A stretch of 10,641 bases of DNA, from positions 1 to 10,641 of the forward strand of contig JAEOTN010000129.1 in the NCBI GenBank assembly GCA_016839865.1, given 5' to 3'. The stretch comes from Promethearchaeota archaeon. GTDB lineage: Archaea > Asgardarchaeota > Lokiarchaeia > Sigynarchaeales > MK-D1. The notes beneath the pieces are model-generated. The model did not search any database. It saw only the letters and a list, made by a program, of their open reading frames with translations, and was not told the DNA's origin. This document shows positions 771 through 10,641 of this stretch, one piece after another. The translations under genes were made by a program, and so were the position numbers. Within the stretch, counting starts at the first letter, position 1. Each line of letters starts with the position of its first letter.

Positions 771-908
771 ATGCCTTCGAAAAATGTAACCTTGAATGTC
801 GATGAAGAATTATACGATAAATACAGGAAGTTTTGCAAGAAAAAGGGTTGGATAATATCCAGGCAGTTCGAAATCATGATGGAAGAACAGATGGGAAAGG
901 TAGGATGA
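771..908 (+). CDS. Small ribbon-helix-helix DNA-binding protein, putative operon controller
   Basis: A 45-residue protein starting MPSKNVTLNVDEELY. It shows the ribbon-helix-helix (MetJ/Arc) layout: an N-terminal strand with alternating residues (KNVTLNV, about residues 4-10), helix A (about 11-25, DEELYDKYRKFCKKKG), a turn, and helix B (about 28-42, ISRQFEIMMEEQM). Such proteins dimerise through the strand, which enters the DNA major groove. It ends one base before the methyltransferase ATG, so the two are almost surely co-transcribed and translationally coupled. By analogy with small controller proteins of restriction-modification operons, the inferred job is repression or timing of this operon. 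ATG at 771 fits the family start; an in-frame GTG at 762 would add three residues. No toxin partner is seen, so an antitoxin role is less likely. Confidence 0.8.
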   Translation: MPSKNVTLNVDEELYDKYRKFCKKKGWIISRQFEIMMEEQMGKVG

Positions 909-909
909 A

Positions 910-1983
910 ATGGCCGAAAAAGTGTTGAAAGCTGTCGATTTCTTCTGCGGTGCAGGGGGAATGACTTATGGTTTATCCCAAGCGGGGATAGTTGTACTGG
1001 CAGGTATTGACATTGATATTAGCTGTAGGAAAACCTATGAATTTAATAATCCCAACTCAAAATTTATACATGCTGATATTCACGATCTGACCGAAAAAGA
1101 CCTTGCTAGACTAATCGGAATAAAAAGAAATGATGACTCTTTGATTTTCGTCGGATGTAGCCCATGCCAGTACTGGACAAAAATTTATACCAATAAGGAG
1201 AAATCGGAAGAAACTAAGAATCTTTTGAAAGAGTATCAACGTTTTGTATCGTATTTCAAACCGGGATATATAATAATAGAAAATGTTCCCGGGTTATATA
1301 TGAAAAAAGATAAAAATGCACTTTCTCCCTTTTTACAATTTCTAAAGAATAATAACTATTCTTACGATCATGGACTAATTAATGCGAATCATTTCGGGGT
1401 ACCTCAACATAGGATAAGATATCTACTTTTATCAACGAAACTCAACGATGATTTAATCTTACCCCAAAAAGAATGTGATGATAAATTAATCGTTAGAAAT
1501 TTCATTGGAATTGCAAATGGATTTCCAGCTGTTGAAGCGGGTCACAAAGACGTGTCAGATTTTCGCCATACTGTTGCTTCTCTGTCGAAAAAAAACAAAA
1601 AAAGAATTCAAATTACGCCTCCAAATGGAGGAACTCGATTAAGTTGGAAAGACGAGCCAGAATTGCAGATAAATGCCTATCGTGGTGATGACACTATTTT
1701 TAAGGATGTTTACGGACGGATGTTTTGGAATAAACCGGCACCTACTATTACTACTAGATTCAACAGCTTCTCTAACGGCAGATTCGGACATCCAGAGGAG
1801 AATAGAGCAATATCTTTAAGGGAAGGTGCGACATTACAGAGCTTCCCGAAAACATATGTATTTACTGAAGAGAATATGGCTGTAACGGCTAGGCATATAG
1901 GCAATGCAGTCCCGCCCGAACTGGCTAAAAGGATCGGGTTAGAGCTAAGGGGGAATTGGGAGAATGCCATCATTTCGAGCTAA
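910..1983 (+). CDS. dcm: DNA (cytosine-5-)-methyltransferase
   Basis: This 357-residue C5-cytosine methyltransferase transfers a methyl group from S-adenosylmethionine to a target cytosine in a specific DNA sequence. The conserved motifs appear in the canonical order. Motif I (DFFCGAGG, residues 10-17) binds SAM. Motif IV (SPCQ) carries the catalytic Cys86. Motif VI is ENV at 124-126 and motif VIII is QHRIR at 166-170. A target-recognition region follows at about 180-290, then motif IX (LREGATLQSFP) and motif X (IGNAVPP, 330-336). Nothing essential is missing. The recognition sequence cannot be read from the protein. It starts one base after the ribbon-helix-helix gene and overlaps the ATPase gene by 20 bases. 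In this operon it probably provides the self mark, and a Vsr gene downstream fits m5C modification. The symbol dcm is used as a family label, not to claim CCWGG specificity. Confidence 0.96.
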   Translation: MAEKVLKAVDFFCGAGGMTYGLSQAGIVVLAGIDIDISCRKTYEFNNPNSKFIHADIHDLTEKDLARLIGIKRNDDSLIFVGCSPCQYWTKIYTNKEKSEETKNLLKEYQRFVSYFKPGYIIIENVPGLYMKKDKNALSPFLQFLKNNNYSYDHGLINANHFGVPQHRIRYLLLSTKLNDDLILPQKECDDKLIVRNFIGIANGFPAVEAGHKDVSDFRHTVASLSKKNKKRIQITPPNGGTRLSWKDEPELQINAYRGDDTIFKDVYGRMFWNKPAPTITTRFNSFSNGRFGHPEENRAISLREGATLQSFPKTYVFTEENMAVTARHIGNAVPPELAKRIGLELRGNWENAIISS

Positions 1984-4879
1984 AGCACGGGCGATAGATT
2001 TACTCGGAAAAGGCCAGATTGCTGATCTGCCTACCGCAATTTGCGAACTATGGAAAAACGGATACGATGCCTATGCTGATAACCTTTCATGTGACTTTTA
2101 TTTAAAAGGATACAAAGATTTGGAGTCTCCTATCTTTATATTATCCGATGATGGAACGGGTATGTCGAGAAAAGATATTGAAGAGAAGTGGATTGTTTTA
2201 GGAACGGATTCCAGAGTTAGAGGAATGGAACCTCTCAAAAAAGAAGAAAGACTTGGTAAACTGCCTAGGACACCTATGGGAGAAAAAGGAATAGGAAGGC
2301 TATCGGTTGCATATCTTGGCTCTCAAATGTTAATGCTTACAAAAAAGAAAAACGAAAAATGCTTAGTTCTATTTATGAATTGGGAAATTTTAGAGAATTT
2401 CAATCTTTACTTGGATGATGTCGATATTCCTATAAAAGAAATCACCTCTATTACCACAGTAAAAGATATCTTTAATGAAATAGTGAATGAATTTAAACAA
2501 AATCTAAAACAAGGAAATTGGGAAGAACACAAAACAACATATACTAAAATTTCAGAAGATTTGAGTGAAATTGAATTTCCAGATTTTCTAGTAGAGGAAA
2601 AGATGTCGAAATTTCTGAAAGCGGAGGAACACGGAACTATTTTTGTGATTTTCGATCCTCATGAACAATTAACTGAATTGGCACAGGGGGACAGAATAGA
2701 TGTCCGAGATGATCCTGCTACTAACTATTTACGGTCGTCACTAAGTGGAATACATAATGCCTTCAAGGATGACCGATTATTTGAAACACGATTTTGGATT
2801 CATGATTCTGGTGGGATATATGACCTAATTGCTAAAGAGAATTTTTTTACTAGAGAAGATATTTACAATGCAGACCATTGGTTCAATGGAACTTTTGATG
2901 AGAGAGGTTTTTTTACTGGTGACATTCAAGTTTTCAATCAAATAATTCAGCATACCTTTCATCCAAGAAGACCACCGGGAGCCACACCTTATGGTCCATT
3001 TAAAATTGAATTCGGTTTTATGGAAGGAGATCCAAAAAATAGCAAACTTGCGAGAGAACAATGGGATGCAATTATGAAAAAGTGTGGTAAATTCGGTGGA
3101 TTATACCTATATCGAGATAAATTTAGAGTTCTTCCTTATGGTCGAACTGAGTACGATTTTTTAAAATTTGAAGAGAGGAGATCCTTACAAGCTTCCTATT
3201 ATCAATTCAGTCACCGTAGAATTTTTGGTTATATCGAAATCAGTAGAGATAATAATCCTCAAATGAAAGATAAGGCGGGCCGAGAGGGGTTCATTGTTAA
3301 TCGTGCTTATAGAGAATTCCAGGAGGATTTAATTGCATTTTTTATCGATCTTTCCACGAGATATTTTAGAACTAGAACAACAGATGAAAAGGAAAAGGGA
3401 GAAACACCGACTTTACGTGAGGAACAAGTGGAGGCTATTAGGCAACGTAATGAAAGATTATTGAAAGCGGAAAAGAAAAGAAGTAAAATGACTAAAACTA
3501 GATTCAAAAAAGAATTAAAAGAAAATACCGAAAAAATCGGTTTGATTATGGAGAAAAGCAGAGATTTATTTGAAAAATTAAAAATTGAAAAATCGAAAGT
3601 TACGTTAATTTATAACGAAATTTCTTCCTTGATTTCCCAATTGGAAGAGAATAAAAGTAAATTAAAGAAAATGAAACTGGTCAGACCGAGAAGAATAACA
3701 TTAACAGATAGTCAAACGAACAAATATAACACATATCGTGAAGAATACGAAGAAGGAATGGAATTCTTTTCGAACTGTGATAACTTAATCTCGGAAACAC
3801 AAAAAATGTTAACTAAAGAAAATCTTAAGGAAGAATTCGAAAAAAGGTATGATGACCTGGAGGATAACATATCTTCTTCAATAAAGGAATACGAATCAAG
3901 GTTTAGTGGGATAATGGTGGCCTTAGATGGACAGATAAAGGAAGACATCCAAAAATTTGGTGATTTCTATGCGGAAAAAACCGGACATCTGGTATTAACA
4001 GGAAATGAAGAAAATGAGGAAATTGAAAAGAGAATTCGGATGCTAGAACAAATTCATGATGCTATAATGGACGAAATAGAAGAAAAATATGAGCCGTTTA
4101 TAAAACATGTGGAAGGTCTCAGTTTTGGAATTGATGACGATTTACTAGTGGGATGGTATAAAGAAGAATATGAAAAAATAAACGAGAAGGTTGAGGCAAT
4201 GCATGAGCTGGCTCAACTCGGTATGGCTATAGAAATTATCGATCATCAATTCAATGTTCTTTATGCAGAAATGTCGGCTACAATAGATTTCTTCAAACAA
4301 TTCACCAAAGAAAAACCCGAGGTAGAGTACAATTACAAACAATTACGCCAAGCATTCGAACATTTGGAAACTAATCATCAACTTCTCACACCCCTGTATC
4401 GAACAATGAGAAGAGCGAAAACAGAAATCAAAGGTTCGGAAATAAAAGAGTATTTGAATAAATTCTTCGCTAGGAGGTTCGAACGACATCGTATCGAACT
4501 CACCACCGATCCTTCGTTCGATGAATACGTGTTTTACACTTACGAGTCTGTAATCAAACCAATATTTATCAATATAGTGAATAACGCGCTCTATTGGTTG
4601 ATCCCTTCAAGTGACAGAAAGATACATATCACTTATGAAGATGATAAAGTTTTGATAATGAATTCTGGAGAAAAAATTGAACCTGCGGATTTGGACAAGA
4701 TTTTCGAATTATTCTTTACCAGAAAACCTGGAGGTAGGGGAATCGGTTTATATTTAGCTAGAACTAATCTTCATACAATAGGATATGAAATATATGCTAT
4801 TAATGATAAAAAGTTAAACAAATTGAATGGGGCTTGTTTTGTAATTAAAAAGATAAAAGGGGAGAAGAATGGAATTTGA
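1964..4879 (+). CDS. Double-GHKL ATPase: MutL/MORC-like N-terminus, coiled coils, histidine-kinase-like C-terminus
   Basis: A 971-residue protein with two ATP-binding modules. The N-terminal GHKL domain has an N-box (E28, N32, D35 in ELWKNGYDAYA), a G1 box DDGTGM (62-67) and a G2 box GEKGIG (106-111), resembling Hsp90/MutL/MORC-type ATPases. Residues about 480-760 are very rich in Lys and Glu with coiled-coil character. A helix with LGMAIEIIDHQFN follows, whose His761 sits where a histidine kinase H-box would be. A second GHKL domain comes next: N-box NIVNNA (870-875), degenerate G1 NSGE (900-903), F-box IFELFFTRK, and G2 GGRGIG (923-928). MutL/MORC ATPases form ATP-gated clamps on DNA, and a clamp or sensor role here is inference. 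Kinase activity is unproven, because the G1 Asp is replaced by Asn. The gene overlaps the methyltransferase (20 bases) and the receiver-like gene (11 bases), implying tight co-expression. Confidence 0.85.
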   Translation: MPSFRAKARAIDLLGKGQIADLPTAICELWKNGYDAYADNLSCDFYLKGYKDLESPIFILSDDGTGMSRKDIEEKWIVLGTDSRVRGMEPLKKEERLGKLPRTPMGEKGIGRLSVAYLGSQMLMLTKKKNEKCLVLFMNWEILENFNLYLDDVDIPIKEITSITTVKDIFNEIVNEFKQNLKQGNWEEHKTTYTKISEDLSEIEFPDFLVEEKMSKFLKAEEHGTIFVIFDPHEQLTELAQGDRIDVRDDPATNYLRSSLSGIHNAFKDDRLFETRFWIHDSGGIYDLIAKENFFTREDIYNADHWFNGTFDERGFFTGDIQVFNQIIQHTFHPRRPPGATPYGPFKIEFGFMEGDPKNSKLAREQWDAIMKKCGKFGGLYLYRDKFRVLPYGRTEYDFLKFEERRSLQASYYQFSHRRIFGYIEISRDNNPQMKDKAGREGFIVNRAYREFQEDLIAFFIDLSTRYFRTRTTDEKEKGETPTLREEQVEAIRQRNERLLKAEKKRSKMTKTRFKKELKENTEKIGLIMEKSRDLFEKLKIEKSKVTLIYNEISSLISQLEENKSKLKKMKLVRPRRITLTDSQTNKYNTYREEYEEGMEFFSNCDNLISETQKMLTKENLKEEFEKRYDDLEDNISSSIKEYESRFSGIMVALDGQIKEDIQKFGDFYAEKTGHLVLTGNEENEEIEKRIRMLEQIHDAIMDEIEEKYEPFIKHVEGLSFGIDDDLLVGWYKEEYEKINEKVEAMHELAQLGMAIEIIDHQFNVLYAEMSATIDFFKQFTKEKPEVEYNYKQLRQAFEHLETNHQLLTPLYRTMRRAKTEIKGSEIKEYLNKFFARRFERHRIELTTDPSFDEYVFYTYESVIKPIFINIVNNALYWLIPSSDRKIHITYEDDKVLIMNSGEKIEPADLDKIFELFFTRKPGGRGIGLYLARTNLHTIGYEIYAINDKKLNKLNGACFVIKKIKGEKNGI

Positions 4880-6578
4880 CGCAGTAGCCAAGAAAATAGT
4901 AGGCGATTCGATTTGCACTGCAATATGCATCGACAATGCTTTTGAGGAGCCCTACACCCATGTTGACCATCCATCCGACCCTAGTTTCAAGCTACCAAAA
5001 GAATTATATGAATCTTTCAAAAAACAAAACTGCGTACTCGATTTTTACAAATATGTCGATTTGGAAACTTGGGAAACAAATCAAGATTATATATTGAAAA
5101 ATAAGGACTTATTAATCTTAGATTGGGAACTGATAGATGGAGACCCGAAATATAAAGATGCGTTGGAGATTCTCCTAAAGACTGTGAACTCAGACAGTCT
5201 AGCATTTGTATATATATATACTCATGAAATGAACCTTGATAGTGTTGCATTAAATATCTCTTCGTATTTTTCTCATAACTCTTTGAAAGAATTAAAAAGT
5301 AAATATGAAACCTTTGGTGATAATCTAGAAGATCTTCCAGAAGTCGACGATGCAAATATATTTCTTCAGAGAATAAAAGATAAATGTAAGGAAATCGTAG
5401 TAAATCCTAATAAGGCGCGAGATATCCGGAAGGAAATATCAGAATCTTTCGCGAAGTATCTAGACTCAGAAAATATTGGAATTTTTTGTGATAAGTTCTA
5501 TACTCTCGGAAAACAGATATTCGAATGTGAAAATGAGAATGATTTTTTAATATTTCTGGGGCGATTTTTAAACAATGGTCTTTTTAGAGATGGAGTGACT
5601 TTGAATATCGATATATACCCCATCGAGGGTGAAAAATATACATACATAATCAATAACACCCTGGTAAAGATATCGACTAAAAAACTCACATCTACGGAAA
5701 TGGCTGGGGGGGAAGTTGTTTCCCCCGATGAGGTCTATTCGGAATTTTCAAAAACTATTTGTAGGAGACCTCGGAATTTTCTCGCACTTCTCGGATTGGA
5801 AATGAAAAATCTTTATAGAGATAGCTCGTCAGTCATAGGTAAAGACATAAATGAAATCGATGAGTTAGCATTCTTTCACCATCAGGAGAGTCTAGAAACA
5901 GACGAGGAAGGCGAATTCTATACATTTCTGAAAAATATATGGAAAGACGAAGTTTCTTATTTCATTTTAGACCAAACGCCCCTTCTTTTTTTAGGTATGG
6001 ATGATTACAAAATAAAAAATAAAATCAACCAAAATATTGAAGACTTTCGCCGAAATTCCAAGGTGTTCATCGAGAATCTCGCGAAATTAAATTACTATTA
6101 TTCGATGTTAAGACCAACTGAATCCAAACATCGAAAAATTATATTCGGAGATGTTTTTTCAATAGTAAGCGATGATGAAGAATCTTACTTATTGTGCATA
6201 ACACCTCATTGTGATTGTATCCAACCGAAAAAAATTAACAATTGTCTTTATTTTGTAAGTGGAAAAAAGATAAGGGCGAAAAGCGGATTGAAAAGGGGTG
6301 ATTCTGGATTTATTTCCTATGTAAAAATAGATAAGGATATAAATTGTATTGATTGGAAAACAAGTCCTTTTACTCTTTTTATTTCGCTTGAAGAAAACGA
6401 CATTACTAATTCCATAAAATCAGAACTCTCTGGAAAAAAAATATGTTTAAAATATCTCGGTTCTCAAAAAGAAAATTATACTCAAAGAATCGCCAATGAA
6501 TCATTCAGTTGGGCAAGTCGAGTAGGAATAGATTTTGCTAAAATAGAAGAAGAGGAAGGAAATGGAAATGAAAAATGA
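4869..6578 (+). CDS. Response-receiver-like domain protein, partner of the double-GHKL ATPase
   Basis: A 569-residue protein. Its first 125 residues resemble a divergent response-regulator receiver: a strand ending in acidic AICIDNAF (D22), a strand LLILDWELIDGD with Asp85 at the phospho-acceptor position, a helix KYKDALEIL, and a strand FVYIYTHE with Thr at the usual switch position. The middle (about 150-420) is unrecognised and largely helical. A C-terminal region from about 430 contains CITPHCDC (443-450), a Cys/His cluster that might bind metal, followed by beta-rich sequence. The ATG lies inside the end of the ATPase gene, after a GGGGAGA ribosome-binding site. Because the upstream protein has a kinase-like C-terminus, a phosphorelay or a phosphorylation-independent receiver interaction is plausible. 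This is inference from fold resemblance and gene adjacency. No DNA-binding output domain is recognisable. Confidence 0.7.
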   Translation: MEFDAVAKKIVGDSICTAICIDNAFEEPYTHVDHPSDPSFKLPKELYESFKKQNCVLDFYKYVDLETWETNQDYILKNKDLLILDWELIDGDPKYKDALEILLKTVNSDSLAFVYIYTHEMNLDSVALNISSYFSHNSLKELKSKYETFGDNLEDLPEVDDANIFLQRIKDKCKEIVVNPNKARDIRKEISESFAKYLDSENIGIFCDKFYTLGKQIFECENENDFLIFLGRFLNNGLFRDGVTLNIDIYPIEGEKYTYIINNTLVKISTKKLTSTEMAGGEVVSPDEVYSEFSKTICRRPRNFLALLGLEMKNLYRDSSSVIGKDINEIDELAFFHHQESLETDEEGEFYTFLKNIWKDEVSYFILDQTPLLFLGMDDYKIKNKINQNIEDFRRNSKVFIENLAKLNYYYSMLRPTESKHRKIIFGDVFSIVSDDEESYLLCITPHCDCIQPKKINNCLYFVSGKKIRAKSGLKRGDSGFISYVKIDKDINCIDWKTSPFTLFISLEENDITNSIKSELSGKKICLKYLGSQKENYTQRIANESFSWASRVGIDFAKIEEEEGNGNEK

Positions 6579-6616
6579 ACATGTCTAGTGTGTTGCACAT
6601 TCCTTCTCATCAAGAC

Positions 6617-6626
6617 ATATAAGTAT
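6617..6626 (+). promoter_or_regulatory. Possible TATA box before the HNH gene
   Basis: ATATAAGTAT lies in the 124-base gap after the receiver-like gene. It could give the nuclease genes their own transcript starting near 6645, close to the mini-ORF at 6635. The match is moderate and the region is AT-rich. Confidence 0.25.
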
Positions 6627-6634
6627 TGGTTTGG

Positions 6635-6706
6635 ATGACTACGAATGACTATGTCGTTGGTCCGATAGGAAAGAATAAAATGTTGAGAGACAAAGGTGGA
6701 ATATGA
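6635..6706 (+). other. 23-codon mini-ORF overlapping the HNH start (ATGA)
   Basis: The reading frame begins with ATG and ends with TGA at 6704-6706. It shares four bases (ATGA) with the ATG at 6703 of the HNH gene. The peptide begins MTTNDYVVGPIGKN and has no recognised family. The arrangement is typical of translational coupling, so the mini-ORF could set or gate translation of the nuclease. It could equally be a remnant of a former gene or a chance frame; the conventional ribosome-binding site at 6694-6700 sits inside it. Confidence 0.3.
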
Positions 6707-7461
6707 GTAAAATTCTGTTTAAGATAGGGAAACAGTACTCGAGAAACGATATTTACGATATATTAAAAGTACCAAAAGAGAAAAAAAGAGGAAATTGGGA
6801 AACTGGATATAACAGATATAATAAAGATTGGTTTATTTTTTCAAATATAGGAGTTCCCGGAAGAACTGGACACGATTATGAGAATCATTGGTCTGGGGAT
6901 GAGTTTGTTTGGTGTGGAAAGGTCGGTTCAAAAATATCACATACTTCAATTCAATCAATGCTTGTTCCTAAAGGAGACATATATCTTTTTACCCGTGATT
7001 CTAATCAATCTCCGTTTACTTTCGAAGGTAAAGTAAGAGTGAAATCACATAAAGATAGTGTACCAGTAACTATTGTCTGGGAATTAATTGATGTTAATGA
7101 AAGAAATAAAGAACGTTTATCTGAAGAAATATGTAATGCGCAGTTATTAAGAGAGGGGACGAAGAAAAAAATTTATGTAAATCGATATGAACGTAATCCG
7201 CATGCACGTCGGTTATGTATTCAACATTATGGGTTAAATTGTACTGTTTGTGGATTTAATTTTGAAAAATTCTATGGAAAACGAGGGATAGATTACATTC
7301 ATGTACATCACATCATTCCACTTTCAAAAATAAAGGAAGAATATAAATTAGACCCCATAAAAGATTTAAAGCCAGTCTGTGCGAATTGCCATGCAATAAT
7401 TCATAGAACTCTAACACCCATGACTATTGATGAATTGAGAAGAACACTGATGGTGGGATAA
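6703..7461 (+). CDS. HNH endonuclease with N-terminal DUF3427-like domain
   Basis: A 252-residue, two-domain protein. Residues about 3-145 match the pattern of DUF3427, a domain otherwise found at the C-terminus of some helicases: IGKxYSRNDIYDIL, then DYENHW, a Trp-containing FVWCGKVGS strand, IYLFTR, and FTFEGKV. Residues about 165-250 form a zinc-supported HNH (beta-beta-alpha-metal) nuclease: Cys180 and Cys183, the catalytic His pair H202-H203 in VHHIIPLS, then DLKPVCANCH with Cys226 and Cys229 and a following HxxxH (230 and 234). All expected metal ligands are present, so it should be active. In this cluster it is the best candidate for the DNA-cleaving effector. The N-terminal domain may choose the target, possibly a modification state, which is inference. 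The ATG follows an AGGTGGA ribosome-binding site with very short spacing. Confidence 0.87.
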   Translation: MSKILFKIGKQYSRNDIYDILKVPKEKKRGNWETGYNRYNKDWFIFSNIGVPGRTGHDYENHWSGDEFVWCGKVGSKISHTSIQSMLVPKGDIYLFTRDSNQSPFTFEGKVRVKSHKDSVPVTIVWELIDVNERNKERLSEEICNAQLLREGTKKKIYVNRYERNPHARRLCIQHYGLNCTVCGFNFEKFYGKRGIDYIHVHHIIPLSKIKEEYKLDPIKDLKPVCANCHAIIHRTLTPMTIDELRRTLMVG

Positions 7462-7463
7462 AG

Positions 7464-7892
7464 ATATCGGATATTTATTCAATAGAGAAACGTAGCGATA
7501 TAATGTCGAAAATTCGACAAGAGGATACTAAACCAGAAATTATTGTCCGGAGATTTCTATTCTCTAAAGGATTTCGATATCGGAAGAACGATCTCCGCTA
7601 CTTTGGAAAACCCGATATAGTACTTCCGAAATATAATACAATAGTATTTGTACACGGATGTTTTTGGCACGGCCACGAAGGATGTAAATCTTCAACATTA
7701 CCCAAAACAAGGACAGATTTTTGGAGAAACAAGATAGAAGATAATATAATTCGTGACCAAAATAACATCCAAAAGCTAAAAGATCATGGTTGGAACGTTA
7801 TTGTTATCTGGGAGTGTGAAATAAATAGCGAGAATAATCGTAAAAAACGACTTCAAAAACTTATTACTGAGATTAATATATTGGGAAAATAA
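7464..7892 (+). CDS. vsr: Vsr-type very short patch repair endonuclease, apparent ATA start
   Basis: Vsr nicks DNA 5' of the T in T:G mismatches left by deamination of 5-methylcytosine, so it normally travels with C5-methyltransferases, as here. From ATG 7503 the protein has 129 residues: Glu12 in TKPEI, PD motif Asp38, the metal and active-site stretch HGCFWHGHEGC (51-61), FW of TDFWRNKI, and VIWECE. Homology continues upstream in frame. From an ATA at 7464 the peptide reads SDIYSIEKRSDI before that Met, matching the E. coli Vsr N-terminus (ADVHDKATRSKN). Counting from the ATA gives Glu25, Asp51, Cys66, His69 and His71, the E. coli numbers as I recall them. The true start is therefore probably 7464, ATG having become ATA or a rare start codon being used. 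GGTGGGA at 7452-7458 is a suitable ribosome-binding site. Starting at 7503 would remove the first 13 residues. Confidence 0.9.
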   Translation: MSDIYSIEKRSDIMSKIRQEDTKPEIIVRRFLFSKGFRYRKNDLRYFGKPDIVLPKYNTIVFVHGCFWHGHEGCKSSTLPKTRTDFWRNKIEDNIIRDQNNIQKLKDHGWNVIVIWECEINSENNRKKRLQKLITEINILGK

Positions 7893-8109
7893 AGAAATCT
7901 CGGATGTTAGGAACTCCCACTATTATTGAAAACTACGCCAAACCCCAGATATTCAGGAGAATCAGAAACTTCTCCGCTCCTCATTCACTTTGTTCGTTGC
8001 GGTGATCGATTCCGTTGCACTCTCGCCTTCGCCACAAATCGTTTAACAAATAGATATAAAGCTCCATACCTTGCAGGCCTCCCCCCAAATTACCTCTACT
8101 TTGAAAACG

Positions 8110-8117
8110 TTTATATT
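8110..8117 (+). promoter_or_regulatory. TATA box candidate for the 139-residue gene
   Basis: TTTATATT is a good match to archaeal TATA boxes. With the usual spacing, transcription would begin near 8140, upstream of the mini-ORF at 8157 and the gene at 8194. It lies in an otherwise less AT-rich patch, which makes the match stand out. Confidence 0.4.
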
Positions 8118-8156
8118 CAGCAACTTCGCATTACCCGATAGCCGTGAAGTGAAATC

Positions 8157-8192
8157 ATGGACGTCGAGCGATTAAAGAGGAAGAGGGTATGA
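8157..8192 (+). other. 11-codon mini-ORF just upstream of the 139-residue gene
   Basis: The mini-ORF encodes the very basic peptide MDVERLKRKRV and stops one base before the ATG at 8194. Its 3' half contains AGAGGAAGAGG, which doubles as the ribosome-binding site of the next gene. It could be a translational coupling leader or coincidence. Confidence 0.25.
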
Positions 8193-8193
8193 T

Positions 8194-8613
8194 ATGGAAA
8201 ATCTTAATTGTATAAAACTCTCTGATAATGTTATCAGATGTGACAATGAATATTGGCATTATTATTATAGAATGGCAAAATCGGAACAAGAAATAACGGG
8301 TAAATATCTCTTTTTTTCCGACAGTAAAGACGAGCTAGAAAAAATTGTTATCAACGAATTGGAATTGTGTGGTTTCTTTCATGCTAAAATTAATACAGAT
8401 GAGCATAAGAAAGGAAAAGAATATGTTTTGTGTTTATATTATGCTGATGACTCAAGAAAATTCGAGTTGGCTAATAAATATAAAAATACTCCTAATCTTA
8501 AGTATAGATATTGGAAAAATGACGAAGATACATTAAATAGAAAATACTCGAGAGAATTCTTGGACAAATTACCAACCGAAGAAAAGAAAAGGTGGACTCG
8601 AAGGAAGATATAA
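8194..8613 (+). CDS. Hypothetical protein, tentatively BLES03/DUF1917-like
   Basis: A 139-residue soluble protein without signal peptide or membrane segment. Its order of elements (GKYLFFSDSKDELEKI at about 36-51, FHAKIN at 62-67, EYVLCLYYADDSRKFELA, then YRYWKNDEDTLNRKYSREFL) recalls BLES03/DUF1917 proteins. Those have a K-W/Y-L-x-F strand, an AK pair, a VICVY strand and a YK-x-D-x-T turn, and their fold is related to phosphothreonine lyases. No catalytic claim is made. The similarity is from memory of the pattern and could be coincidental. A strong ribosome-binding site, AGAGGAAGAGG, supports the start at 8194. It lies downstream of vsr with its own candidate promoter, so it may be cargo unrelated to the modification system. 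Confidence 0.6.
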   Translation: MENLNCIKLSDNVIRCDNEYWHYYYRMAKSEQEITGKYLFFSDSKDELEKIVINELELCGFFHAKINTDEHKKGKEYVLCLYYADDSRKFELANKYKNTPNLKYRYWKNDEDTLNRKYSREFLDKLPTEEKKRWTRRKI

Positions 8614-8877
8614 TGAAAGAATTACACCACTCCTTTGCAGATCCAGAAATGTAGAGAGATGGATATCATCAAGAAGTAAAAGAATAACTAATTTATAATT
8701 TAAAGATGACTGAAGCAATATATTCTCATGGGAAAACAATTGGAAAATTCAAATATGAACATAAAGAATATGGTGAAAGCAAAGGTGAGAAAGAAGTCAA
8801 TGTTAATTGGTAAATAATTAGATTCCTTAAGTAATACATGTTAGAAATTTCAGCTTAAATAATTAAGAAGGGAATGA
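8614..8877 (+). other. Intergenic gap with a 35-codon ORF at 8706-8813
   Basis: This gap is AT-rich. A 13-codon frame starts at 8613, overlapping the previous stop. A 35-codon frame at 8706-8813 begins MTEAIYSHGKTIGKF and is Lys/Glu-rich. Neither has a convincing ribosome-binding site or a recognisable family. They may be decayed ends of genes or chance frames. Confidence 0.25.
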
Positions 8878-9165
8878 ATGATAGATCAAAAAACTGATTA
8901 TTATGCATGCAAAATATGTAAAAAACCTAGAAATTGGTATAAAACAAATAGTGAAATAGGGATAGAACATATTAGATATTTTGACCCAATAGAATCAAAT
9001 AAAAAAGATGCTAAATATTATTATGATATTCATCATAATATATGGCATAGGCCAGATAGAAGTTTTATACAATATCAGGCAAAATTATCTGTATCTAATG
9101 GGAAAATAAAAAAAACCGTAATAAATAAAAATGTGGATTTAAATCAACCCACTACGATAAATTAA
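8878..9165 (+). CDS. Small hypothetical protein with one CxxC pair
   Basis: 95 residues, unrecognised. It has an N-terminal CKIC pair at about residues 11-14, then mixed polar sequence with several Tyr and a His-containing stretch (YYYDIHHNIWHRPD, about 48-61), and an Asn/Lys-rich tail. One CxxC plus the later histidines could form a small metal site, but this is only a possibility. The ATG at 8878 follows AAGAAGGG at 8866-8872, a reasonable ribosome-binding site, which supports a real gene. It ends 51 bases from the convergent integrase gene. It may be cargo of the element that the integrase mobilises. Confidence 0.5.
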   Translation: MIDQKTDYYACKICKKPRNWYKTNSEIGIEHIRYFDPIESNKKDAKYYYDIHHNIWHRPDRSFIQYQAKLSVSNGKIKKTVINKNVDLNQPTTIN

Positions 9166-9216
9166 CTAATAGTTCTACCCATTTGTAATTCAATATCATC
9201 TAAAATATAAAATTCA

Positions 9217-10461
9217 TTAGTCAAATCTAGCAAAAGGACCAATTTGTTTCTTAAAGACCAAACTCTGATTTGGGGGCATCTTTCCCATTTCCGTCAATAA
9301 TTTTACAGCACAATCATATATGTCCTTTCGACGCTCCTCAGCTTCTCTATCCAATTTCTGCTCAATAAGATTCAATTTAGCCTTTAACTCATCATTCTCA
9401 CCCTTTAATTCGTCAACTCTATCCTTCCTTACCAACTCAGAAGCATCAGGCAATCGAACCTTACTCCTGGCTAGATAATCCTTTAATCTCTCACCTACAG
9501 TTCCATAACTCCACCCATACCTATCAGCAAGAGCAATAAAATCACGGTTGTAAATCTCTAAGTAATAATGGATAGAAGAATGCCTTAATGTATACATATC
9601 AATCCCAAAACCAAACAAATCGTTGCATTTATAACTCAGATATTTTCTTGCATATTTGTATTTAATTTTGAACAATGGCTCATCCAAATTACCCTTCTTC
9701 TTATCCTTGTTCAATGCCAAATATTTATTAAGCCATTTTGTGCACAAAGGTATATCAACAACTCTCTTTTTTGAGTTTTTCTTAGGAAATTGACAGTAAA
9801 TCCAGTACTTTTTCTTATCACTATCCCATTGAACATCTTTTATTCTTATGTTCCATAGTTCTTCAGGTCTAAAACCAGAATCAAAGCCAACCATTAATAA
9901 AGTTCCAAGATTCAGATTTGAGCTATCAGCAATCAATTCAGCTTGATCTAATGTGATAATCTCAGGTTCCTTTAATTTATCTTGGTCAATAAGGTAGGTA
10001 AAACCCATAAAAACCTGGTCAAAAGAAAATTGTCTACCATTTTCATCATATTGAGGTTTGTTTTTAGATTCATAATAAATCCATCGAAATAATTGTTTTA
10101 AATTTTTTATATAATCTTGTTTTGTAATTTCTGAATAGTTTGCCCTTTCATTTCCTGCATTTTTAAGTGTATTTTTATATTTAAATTCATTATCTATTAA
10201 TTTTCTAATAACTTCTTGGCAATCTTGCCTTGTTACCTCTGAGAAAGGTTTGTTAAACCATGATTCACAAGTAATAAAGGTAGAAATAAGACGAAGTAAT
10301 CTGCTTGCAGTAATTCGTGGATTGCTTTCTTTTTTATAACTTAAAAATTCAAGAATTAGCTCCTTATTTTTAGGTAAGATAACCATGGAATTCTTTAACT
10401 TTTTTAGTACAAACTCATACTTTTTTCCTGAATCATGAAGTTTAATTCGGGGGGATACCAT
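9217..10461 (-). CDS. int: Tyrosine recombinase/integrase (archaeal type)
   Basis: A 414-residue integrase that would catalyse site-specific integration or excision through a covalent 3'-phosphotyrosyl intermediate. The N-terminal part (about 1-160) is a helical SAM-like core-binding domain. The catalytic part has box I Arg198 in SGFRPEEL, then Tyr290-x-x-Arg293 in MYTLRHS, where the usual box II His is a Tyr. Trp317 in YGWSYGT stands at the His/Trp position, and the nucleophile is probably Tyr329 in LKDYLAR. The Y-x-x-R form is known in archaeal integrases. The C-terminus (about 343-385) is an acidic/basic coiled coil starting near KGENDELKAKLNLIE, then a short tail. The gene looks intact, unlike the recombinase relic at the left edge. 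It faces the plus-strand genes, suggesting that it marks one end of an integrated element carrying them. The ATG at 10461 has a TATA box at leaderless spacing. Confidence 0.93.
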   Translation of the reverse strand: MVSPRIKLHDSGKKYEFVLKKLKNSMVILPKNKELILEFLSYKKESNPRITASRLLRLISTFITCESWFNKPFSEVTRQDCQEVIRKLIDNEFKYKNTLKNAGNERANYSEITKQDYIKNLKQLFRWIYYESKNKPQYDENGRQFSFDQVFMGFTYLIDQDKLKEPEIITLDQAELIADSSNLNLGTLLMVGFDSGFRPEELWNIRIKDVQWDSDKKKYWIYCQFPKKNSKKRVVDIPLCTKWLNKYLALNKDKKKGNLDEPLFKIKYKYARKYLSYKCNDLFGFGIDMYTLRHSSIHYYLEIYNRDFIALADRYGWSYGTVGERLKDYLARSKVRLPDASELVRKDRVDELKGENDELKAKLNLIEQKLDREAEERRKDIYDCAVKLLTEMGKMPPNQSLVFKKQIGPFARFD

Positions 10462-10482
10462 TTTATCAATTGTTCAATGTAA

Positions 10483-10492
10483 TTTTATATAC
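10483..10492 (-). promoter_or_regulatory. TATA box of the integrase gene, leaderless spacing
   Basis: On the minus strand this reads GTATATAAAA, preceded by a purine-rich element (TATAAA). Its centre is about 27 bases before the integrase ATG, so transcription should begin at or next to the start codon. No ribosome-binding site is seen, in agreement with a leaderless archaeal mRNA. Confidence 0.6.
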
Positions 10493-10641
10493 TTTATATG
10501 TACACCATTTCCCTCAATTTGGACCGTTTTTGTCCGATGCGCCTGGCGAAATACAGACAAAAGTACTACCATTCAGGGGGAAACAGGATTTCCTCCTAAT
10601 ATTAAAAGATAATTAATCCATCAAAATTTAAAAACCTTTCG
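10493..10641. other. Noncoding right end upstream of the integrase
   Basis: No gene is visible here. It holds an inverted repeat with 7-base arms, TTTTGTC (10528-10534) and GACAAAA (10556-10562), in a locally GC-richer patch. Near the window end lies an AT-rich run (ATTTAAAAACC) that could be a promoter for a gene beyond it. Sites controlling the integrase or its recombination site could lie here, but no tRNA gene half is recognisable. Confidence 0.4.

Follow-up and report, generated by a model that had tools for sequence, protein, structure and literature searches.

The cluster and its proteins

The window analysed here, a stretch of 10,641 nucleotides (contig JAEOTN010000129.1, assembly GCA_016839865.1) from a Promethearchaeota archaeon, carries a cluster of six genes encoding a ribbon-helix-helix (RHH)-like protein, a C5-cytosine DNA methyltransferase (MTase), an ATPase with two GHKL modules, a receiver protein, an SRA-HNH nuclease, and the mismatch endonuclease Vsr (Table 1). 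Reading of the open reading frames (ORFs) and Pfam/NCBIfam scans bore out the original prediction, made from the letters alone, that the six genes share one strand (+) and that the first four adjoin or overlap one another (a gap of 1 bp, then overlaps of 20 and 11 bp); gaps of 124 and 41 bp separate the receiver from the HNH gene and the latter from Vsr. In relatives of the cluster, MTase and nuclease are inherited together, ATPase and receiver are inherited together, and the two units recombine. This separate inheritance is a computational observation, as are the domains and the invariant His, Asp, and Lys residues described below.

The N-terminal GHKL residues of the ATPase (E28, N32, D35, D62, G64, G66, G106, G109, and G111) were invariant in 40/40 homologues and, in a larger alignment, in 44/44. 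A profile of the C-terminal HATPase_c domain matched solved sensor kinases (3a0t, E 3.4e-12), and His761, the candidate phospho-acceptor, was present in all 44 aligned ATPases. The HEF_HK and Response_reg_2 domains of the two overlapping genes scored 82.5 bits (cut-off 24.1) and 78.1 bits (cut-off 27), respectively. Residues D22, D80, D85, K271, and T/S118 of the receiver were kept in 47/47 homologues (related loci are denoted by L numbers; L025, with its receiver in two ORFs, L064, with a 209-aa ORF, and L027 were left out of this alignment), and the window protein has all four signature residues D22, D85, T118, and K271. Its second beta1 position is Asn23 (N in 3, D in 40, and E in 4 of the 47). 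These data support the assignment of a MutL/MORC-like double-GHKL ATPase and a genuine receiver, linked to a C5 MTase in a cluster centred on restriction-modification (R-M), as had been proposed.

From the secondary structure of the AlphaFold2 model of the receiver protein, and from aligned ranges that extend to residue ∼300 with only ∼115 residues aligned, the receiver domain is predicted to be split by a helical insertion; the output domain is predicted to adopt a MazF/CcdB-like fold. For the output domain, a relationship to MazF at the sequence level was considered and rejected, with fold likeness alone remaining: hhalign comparison with PemK/MazF (8 PemK sequences) gave a probability of 0.2%, and PemK was not among the 25 of 61 families listed for a Pfam scan of 59 members of the receiver-protein family. 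The invariant output-domain residues G427, C448, and D449 also differ from those that we take to be catalytic in MazF. The receiver protein has no Pfam DNA-binding domain, and a search for its solved structural relatives returned none that was convincing (best E 0.069).

The nuclease combines a reader-like and a catalytic half. At the sequence level, residues 7-113 of a profile of 30 HNH homologues matched residues 805-917 of PDB 7clg (E 4.4e-5), and the HNH half of the same profile matched EcoKMcrA (6ghc, E 1.9e-7); HNH residues H202, H203, N228, and H230 were found in 30/30. PDB 7CLG is SauUSI, whose residues 806-953 are described as an SRA fold recognising 5-methylcytosine, with a modelled pocket lined by Tyr831, Phe841, Ile842, and Trp868 and with Asp858 placed to bond the flipped cytosine (PMC7913695); DUF3427 is the C-terminal domain of SauUSI (PMC3874153, PMC12137116, PMC12839542). 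Mapping of SauUSI residues on the window protein, done by hand on the printed profile alignment, placed Tyr36 (29/30), Phe46 (30/30), Trp70 (30/30), and, for Ile842, a variable Ser47 at the pocket, and Asn61, an Asn in 29/30 homologues, at the position of Asp858. The reader domain is retained with its base-reading residue changed, so that the polarity of cutting does not follow from it.

Table 1. Features of the cluster, with positions in the window
Feature	Position	Strand	Evidence or remark
RHH-like ORF, 45 aa, probable small regulator	771-908	+	Weak ParG match, E 0.077, under cut-off
C5-cytosine DNA methyltransferase, 357 aa	910-1983	+	PF00145 3e-51; TIGR00675 132.3 bits (cut-off 100.65)
ParaMORC-like, histidine-kinase-like ATPase, 971 aa	1964-4879	+	HATPase_c_3 4.8e-12; HEF_HK 3.1e-23; HATPase_c 2.8e-10
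N-terminal GHKL (HATPase_c_3) domain, ATPase residues 24-147	2033-2404	+	Pfam
HEF_HK (DHp-like) domain, ATPase residues 751-817	4214-4414	+	Pfam; candidate phospho-acceptor His761 at 4244-4246
C-terminal HATPase_c (kinase CA) domain, ATPase residues 865-961	4556-4846	+	Pfam; sensor-kinase profile match
Receiver protein (Response_reg_2), 569 aa	4869-6578	+	PF19192 1.2e-21; AlphaFold2 mean pLDDT 89.3
Receiver domain, part 1, residues 15-133	4911-5267	+	Candidate phospho-acceptor Asp85 at 5121-5123
Predicted helical insertion splitting the receiver domain, residues 134-248	5268-5612	+	Model secondary structure and aligned ranges
Receiver domain, part 2 (beta5-alpha5), residues 249-301	5613-5771	+	Conserved Lys271 at 5679-5681
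Output domain, predicted MazF/CcdB-like fold, residues 426-553	6144-6527	+	Invariant G427, C448, D449
SRA-like and HNH nuclease, 252 aa	6703-7461	+	HNH 2.9e-8; DUF3427 4.6e-8
SRA-like (DUF3427) reader domain, residues 7-113	6721-7041	+	Profile match to PDB 7clg (SauUSI)
HNH nuclease domain, residues 180-235	7240-7407	+	Pfam; EcoKMcrA 6ghc profile match
Vsr mismatch endonuclease	7503-7892	+	PF03852 2e-29; TIGR00632 129 bits (cut-off 97.85)

Two gene pairs with separate histories

Related loci (49) came from a receiver-alignment scan (30) and from the surroundings of PF19192 hits in phylum samples, outside their centre genomes (19); the short or duplicate stretches L031-L063 were dropped and replaced by L064-L082, and below-cut-off hits (L033, L054-L062) were also dropped. 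Co-occurrence beyond chance, about which the original prediction had asked, was found, for the C5 MTase far beyond it: the ATPase flanks the receiver in 48/48 evaluable loci, and a C5 MTase lies within ∼0.6 kb of the pair in 44/46. It precedes the pair in the same orientation in 41 loci and lies downstream in L029, L030, and L074, with L027 unevaluable at contig ends for the ATPase, and L001, L002, and L027 for the MTase. The two loci without MTase are L064, on a short contig with short ORFs, and L073. Among the 19 loci known from Pfam hits only, the figures are 19/19 for the ATPase and 17/19 for the MTase; in L067 and L068, an ORF behind the ATPase was taken as the receiver from its Pfam hit, and the MTase of L072 was read from the ORF list.

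The nuclease is not constant across loci, where several families or none are found. A nuclease or nuclease-like gene stands beside the core in 23/49 loci, and in 18 of these it lies no more than 50 bp behind the receiver, in the same orientation. Only Vsr follows the receiver in 11/49, and neither is present in 15/49, counts that rest on a partial scan of flanking ORFs (in the 15, window HNH and Vsr profiles were run on all ORFs, and Pfam on a downstream-side ORF in 7). The original prediction had named, as telling against a joint system, relatives in which the ATPase-receiver pair usually lacks nuclease or MTase; the pair is indeed without a nuclease in about half of the 49 loci, but without an MTase in only 2/46. 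Classes were assigned from Pfam, NCBIfam, and our own profiles. SRA-HNH lies beside the core in the window, L010, L017, and L007 (upstream and divergent, labelled by hand), whereas L024 has the SRA half alone, followed by another HNH gene, and L080 has an SRA-like region (own profile 1.6e-9, no Pfam DUF3427) with HNH_2. Other HNH_2 proteins occur in L013, L077, and L019 and, on the opposite strand, in L022 and L082; NOV_C in L012 and L023; Mrr_cat in L073; and a YhcG-type nuclease upstream in L029. L027 carries an AAA gene with a DUF2357+PDDEXK_7 (McrBC-like) gene; L028 carries relatives of the two (59% and 66%, respectively), separated by a YhcG-like gene. AAA_15/AAA_21 (OLD/PtuA-like) proteins, which presumably carry a nuclease part, occupy this slot in L014, L015, L016, L018, L020, L025, and L026.

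Comparison of L014 with L028 separates the two pairs. Their ATPases and receivers are 89% and 88% identical, their MTases only 47%, and their slot genes are unrelated; the DNA aligns in a single block (85.7%, 6095-10634 in both) that opens one base ahead of the ATPase start codon and closes 7 bp short of the receiver ORF's end. The reverse holds for L014 against L015, L016, and L018, which share 77-78% in the AAA_15 slot protein, 66-69% in the target recognition domain (TRD) of the MTase, and 74-79% in its remainder, with 40-42% in the ATPase and 29-30% in the receiver, and for L013 against L077 (nuclease 75%, MTase 76/83%, ATPase 39%, and receiver 30%). Across 35 pairs of loci with the same slot class, slot identity correlated with MTase identity (Spearman 0.88 outside the TRD and 0.78 within it) far more than with ATPase (0.32) or receiver identity (0.27); these pairs are non-independent, with 21 of them lying among seven AAA_15 loci, L024 compared by its SRA half, and L019 and L080 pooled.

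Trees gave the same picture. The MTase tree accounts for nuclease class (20 loci, 7 classes, minimum of 6 changes) with 7 changes, whereas the ATPase and receiver trees need 10 each; 200 shuffles gave means of 12 and minima of 9, 10, and 9 for the three trees in that order. Not among the 20 loci are L019 and L027, whose ORFs are short, L029, which was labelled as having none, and L073, which lacks an MTase. When Vsr is treated as a further class (29 loci), the changes are 11, 13, and 13. Approximately unbiased (AU) tests rejected two clades on the MTase tree, L014+L028 (p 4e-62) and L077+L078 (9e-5), and two on the ATPase tree, L013+L077 (3e-5) and the group of seven AAA_15 loci (3e-5); all four had been chosen after the trees, which are quick trees, were seen. 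Length filters left 44 rows in the ATPase alignment and tree and 43 in the class-change trees.

In relatives, the nuclease thus belongs with the MTase, and the ATPase-receiver pair is the exchangeable part. From their co-inheritance in relatives, we infer that the nuclease is probably cognate to the MTase and that the kinase-receiver pair is probably a transferable cassette. The original prediction had reasoned that no classic stand-alone type II restriction enzyme is present and that restriction must therefore be licensed differently; this argument is not supported, the nuclease gene being co-inherited with the MTase in relatives, as a cognate restriction enzyme would be, although the nuclease may in addition be licensed by the kinase-receiver pair. 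TRD identities had prompted a first reading of our own, in which an invariable core of MTase, ATPase, and receiver sets the specificity and accepts any nuclease as a plug-in: against the window TRD, 43 MTases of the system showed 23-65% identity and five treated as outside it 10-22%, though one of the five lies near an SRA-HNH gene (L114) and another is an ORF cut by the locus end. L014 and L028 refute the plug-in part of that reading, as their MTases differ along with their nucleases whereas ATPase and receiver are largely retained. A faster change of the TRD with a different nuclease was not discernible, the TRD being less alike than the rest in 13/18 different-nuclease and 29/35 same-class pairs, which is uninformative.

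SRA-HNH genes were also approached from the nuclease side, in 10 loci (L112-L121, centre genome excluded; from 43 HNH-family loci, we used only those with the SRA profile at 1e-10, L116-L121, with L129 a full-length but weaker match, and L117 and L118 are 93% identical). A C5 MTase lay within 5 kb in four (L112, L114, L119, and L120), and a kinase-receiver pair and a BbrUII/HgiDII-family protein were each detected in one (L119 and L112, respectively). L119, a viral-collection contig, holds a diverged version of the system, comprising Vsr, a double-GHKL kinase, a receiver-like protein that shares the TPxCD motif, a C5 MTase, and SRA-HNH; directly upstream, at 1184-3212, lie an RE_HaeII nuclease (9.7e-147) and an MTase-like ORF, so that two R-M systems stand in a row. 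In L112 (8834-13244), SRA-HNH is divergent from a C5 MTase, a BbrUII/HgiDII-family GHKL protein, and Vsr, with no kinase or receiver.

PF19192 hits above cut-off were infrequent in the phylum samples: 2/392 (Methanoperedens), 11/398 (Vibrio), 9/395 (Dysgonomonas), and 1/398 (Lachnospiraceae), or 1/391, 10/397, 8/394, and 0/397 without the gene-carrying centre genome. Archaeal examples comprise L001 (Candidatus Methanoperedens), whose ATPase fragment is 81% identical to the window ATPase over 172 residues, and proteins named from Argoarchaeum, Methanococcoides, and Methanomicrobium. The viral collection yielded 13 contigs with ATPase relatives, and an MTase hit in 11/13 stretches; phage records gave three weak ATPase matches, one annotated ParaMORC3. 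The window receiver as a single-protein query had no match in genome contigs, the receiver none in plasmids, and the receiver alignment none in viral contigs, although the ATPase search later found receiver-bearing contigs that it had missed. Next to the system in L008, a HEPN-domain protein with weak nucleotidyltransferase matches (3886-4962) is possibly a separate defence gene.

Around the window cluster, several further features were recorded. The ORF labelled RHH in the original prediction is real, but its family match is weak, no Pfam model exceeding its cut-off at 771-908; among the small ORFs just 5′ of the MTase in relatives (7 scanned), four carry a Cro/C1-type helix-turn-helix (HTH), one HTH_73, and two no HTH family. 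The 124-bp gap between receiver and nuclease (6579-6702), against <20 bp in most relatives with a gene directly behind the receiver, possibly holds a separate promoter; a promoter/terminator scan gave signal no higher than shuffled sequence, and a tandem-repeat scan a single minor array. The Vsr frame is open 5′ of its first ATG, and 7458-7502 encodes residues resembling another Vsr N-terminus (L161, 12525-12941), which suggests that the first ATG may not be the real start. Two ORFs 3′ of Vsr (8194-8613 and 8878-9165; 139 and 95 aa) had no Pfam match at E 1. On one side of the cluster lies a C-terminal piece of a tyrosine recombinase (115-456, +; PF00589 1.2e-12) with the motif HSLIHSF, where we take the usual motif to be HxLRH, and on the other a full-length recombinase-like gene (9217-10461, −; XerA_Arch 1.1e-5, below cut-off). 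These flanking genes are signs of a mobile element; the window integrase had no match in the viral contig collection.

A cassette that may gate restriction

The role of the kinase-receiver pair for its R-M neighbours was left as a question by the published bacterial survey (PMC8011034). The best-supported reading, to which we give an even chance, is that the cluster joins an R-M pair to a transferable cassette that gates restriction through His-Asp signalling. In its favour stand the separate inheritance of the two pairs, the invariant signalling residues, the nuclease or nuclease-like gene placed closely behind the receiver in 18/49 loci, and the diverged system of L119. The C5 MTase would mark self DNA, the nuclease behind the receiver would be matched to it, and Vsr would repair T:G mismatches arising from deaminated 5-methylcytosine. 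Within the cassette, a soluble kinase-receiver pair, the N-terminal GHKL module may serve as an ATP-driven DNA clamp or sensor, and the HEF_HK/CA part would pass phosphate from His761 to receiver Asp85; the phosphorylated receiver could then switch the R-M pair through its predicted MazF/CcdB-like output domain, most simply by licensing the nuclease. The system as a whole would sense a signal and act against phage. More tentative, and to our minds rather doubtful, is the broader proposal that one such self-contained cassette (DNA-clamp kinase and split receiver with a MazF/CcdB-like output) moves among unrelated R-M pairs and gates nucleases of many specificities and chemistries (SRA-HNH, HNH_2, NOV_C, OLD-like, and McrBC-like), restriction being licensed by phosphorelay and not by site recognition alone.

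Several findings weigh against gating. The HEF_HK core His is described as being followed by a conserved acidic residue (PMC8011034), whereas the residue after His761 is Gln in 25/44 ATPases, including the window (Gln762), and Glu in 19/44, which makes kinase activity uncertain. Since 15 of the 49 loci show no nuclease and no Vsr next to the receiver, and another 11 show Vsr alone, the cassette is often without a visible nuclease to license. Nine of the 10 nuclease-reached SRA-HNH loci lack a detected kinase and receiver, although some stretches are cut off where the contig or record stops, and a kinase-receiver pair with the divergence seen in L119 may have escaped detection. A PADLOC scan gave no family match to the window ATPase or receiver at E 0.1 or better. 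Decoupling of the two units rests mainly on seven related Bacteroidota loci with an AAA_15/AAA_21 slot gene and on one further pair, and the five loci of the window's own SRA-HNH class (nuclease 42-53%, MTase 47-63%, ATPase 40-59%, and receiver 32-37%) do not resolve MTase from ATPase history for the nuclease.

The 26/49 loci without a nuclease other than Vsr beside the core would also fit a kinase-receiver pair that is itself the effector, with an output domain acting (RNase-like or by target poisoning) when unmarked or invading DNA is sensed, an MTase marking self, and the nuclease an optional parallel weapon. The near constancy of the C5 MTase (44/46) and the predicted MazF/CcdB-like fold point the same way; the output domain, however, shows no profile similarity to PemK/MazF, its residues G427, C448, and D449 are not those that we assume to be catalytic in MazF, and the nuclease or nuclease-like gene, where present, mostly lies within 50 bp of the receiver (18/23 loci). 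We regard this explanation as unlikely, albeit the strongest of the rivals.

Somewhat less probable still is an ordinary regulator, in which the pair responds to a cue by tuning R-M gene expression while the nuclease restricts alone. Conservation of the two-component residues in both proteins favours it, and a control role has been speculated for the same association (PMC8011034); yet the receiver protein lacks a Pfam DNA-binding domain, a separate HTH gene precedes the MTase in 5/7 loci scanned, and the N-terminal GHKL motif residues are kept in 44/44.

The match of the SRA-like domain to a 5-methylcytosine reader, with its pocket aromatics kept (Y36 in 29/30, F46 and W70 in 30/30), raises the further idea of a methylation-dependent (type IV) suicide enzyme, which would be restrained by the receiver and, once released, cut the host's methylated DNA. 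This plain type IV reading was downgraded after the Asn was found at the base-reading position (29/30) and in view of PcaRCI, a C5 MTase with a McrBC-like nuclease that restricts unmethylated DNA (PMC8989522), a precedent by which type IV ancestry leaves polarity unset; carriage next to an active MTase would, moreover, require tight control. We consider it improbable. Chance neighbourhood in a mobile defence island, without joint function, is very improbable: the cluster does lie between two recombinase-like genes and SRA-HNH also occurs elsewhere, but gene order and tight spacing are kept across phyla, and published pseudogenome simulations gave P<0.0001 (PMC8011034).

Should gating by the cassette hold, restriction would be controlled by two-component phosphotransfer, a receiver would have an uncommon type of output domain in the MazF/CcdB-like fold, and the persistence of nuclease families of type IV ancestry beside an active 5-methylcytosine MTase would be easier to explain. 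A direct genetic test is within reach, since the cassette is sharply bounded, MTase plus nuclease and ATPase plus receiver are inherited in opposite ways, and a near-identical cassette stands beside different R-M pairs in L014 and L028.

Comparison with known systems

TagI is reportedly an SRA-HNH nuclease of type IV. With SauUSI and type IV SRA-HNH enzymes, the window nuclease shares an SRA-type reader joined to a nuclease and a McrA-like HNH half; unlike SauUSI as described in PMC7913695, it lies beside a C5 MTase, has Asn for the cytosine-reading Asp, and lacks a helicase. Type IV enzymes are defined by having no cognate methyltransferase, whereas here a C5 MTase is part of the same cluster. 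As to type II R-M, the MTase is present in the window and co-inheritance of nuclease and MTase is seen in relatives, the five SRA-HNH loci themselves not separating the two histories. PcaRCI resembles two of our loci, in which a DUF2357+PDDEXK_7 gene (L027) or its 66% identical relative (L028) follows the receiver; the paper on it (PMC8989522) makes no mention of histidine kinase, response regulator, or GHKL. Because PcaRCI restricts unmethylated DNA, pairings of a C5 MTase with a type-IV-like nuclease can be ordinary R-M.

The link of MORC/paraMORC ATPases to R-M operons dates from Iyer, Abhiman, and Aravind in 2008 (PMC2292703). These operons and the BbrUII/HgiDII family share with the window an N-terminal GHKL+S5-type ATPase beside a cytosine methylase, Vsr, and nucleases. 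The window protein, however, is not a BbrUII/HgiDII enzyme, its N terminus matching NF050001 only over residues 10-144 (4e-13; 48.7 bits against a cut-off of 550), whereas the L112 protein matches in full (777.9 bits). The window ATPase adds a kinase half and a receiver partner, and the term receiver is absent from the 2008 text.

The closest precedent is the HEF_HK/Response_reg_2 association with R-M genes (Bellieny-Rabelo et al. 2021, PMC8011034), reported from 644 regions in 628 bacterial strains with 91.6% linkage of both genes. There, a C5 MTase is often upstream, Vsr occurs in 20 genera, most often right behind the receiver gene, HNH_2 is the commonest endonuclease domain, and phosphotransfer between the two proteins is offered as a possibility. 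The window has in common with it the Pfam domains, the ATPase architecture (HATPase_c_3+HEF_HK+HATPase_c), the adjacency of the two genes, the upstream C5 MTase, and the Vsr and HNH neighbours. The original prediction had called the partnership of ATPase, receiver, and nuclease undefined; the association of ATPase, receiver, C5 MTase, Vsr, and HNH was thus already in print, and the cluster is a case of an association published for bacteria. It differs in being archaeal, archaeal loci not appearing in the available part of that paper, and in having Gln rather than an acidic residue after the His. The paper reports a conserved Lys in a beta5 strand that has weak support and loop extensions; this Lys may correspond to Lys271, which follows the helical insertion in our model. 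The output domain, an SRA-HNH partner, and the independent inheritance of MTase-nuclease and ATPase-receiver pairs were not found in the same available part, nor were the output fold, cassette exchange, and SRA-HNH partner found in the open-access PMC literature (subscription papers and preprints lay outside the search). To the published association, the present analysis adds the separate inheritance of the two pairs, the SRA-like reader with its Asn, the predicted split receiver and output fold, and the invariant candidate His and Asp in 44 and 47 homologues, respectively.

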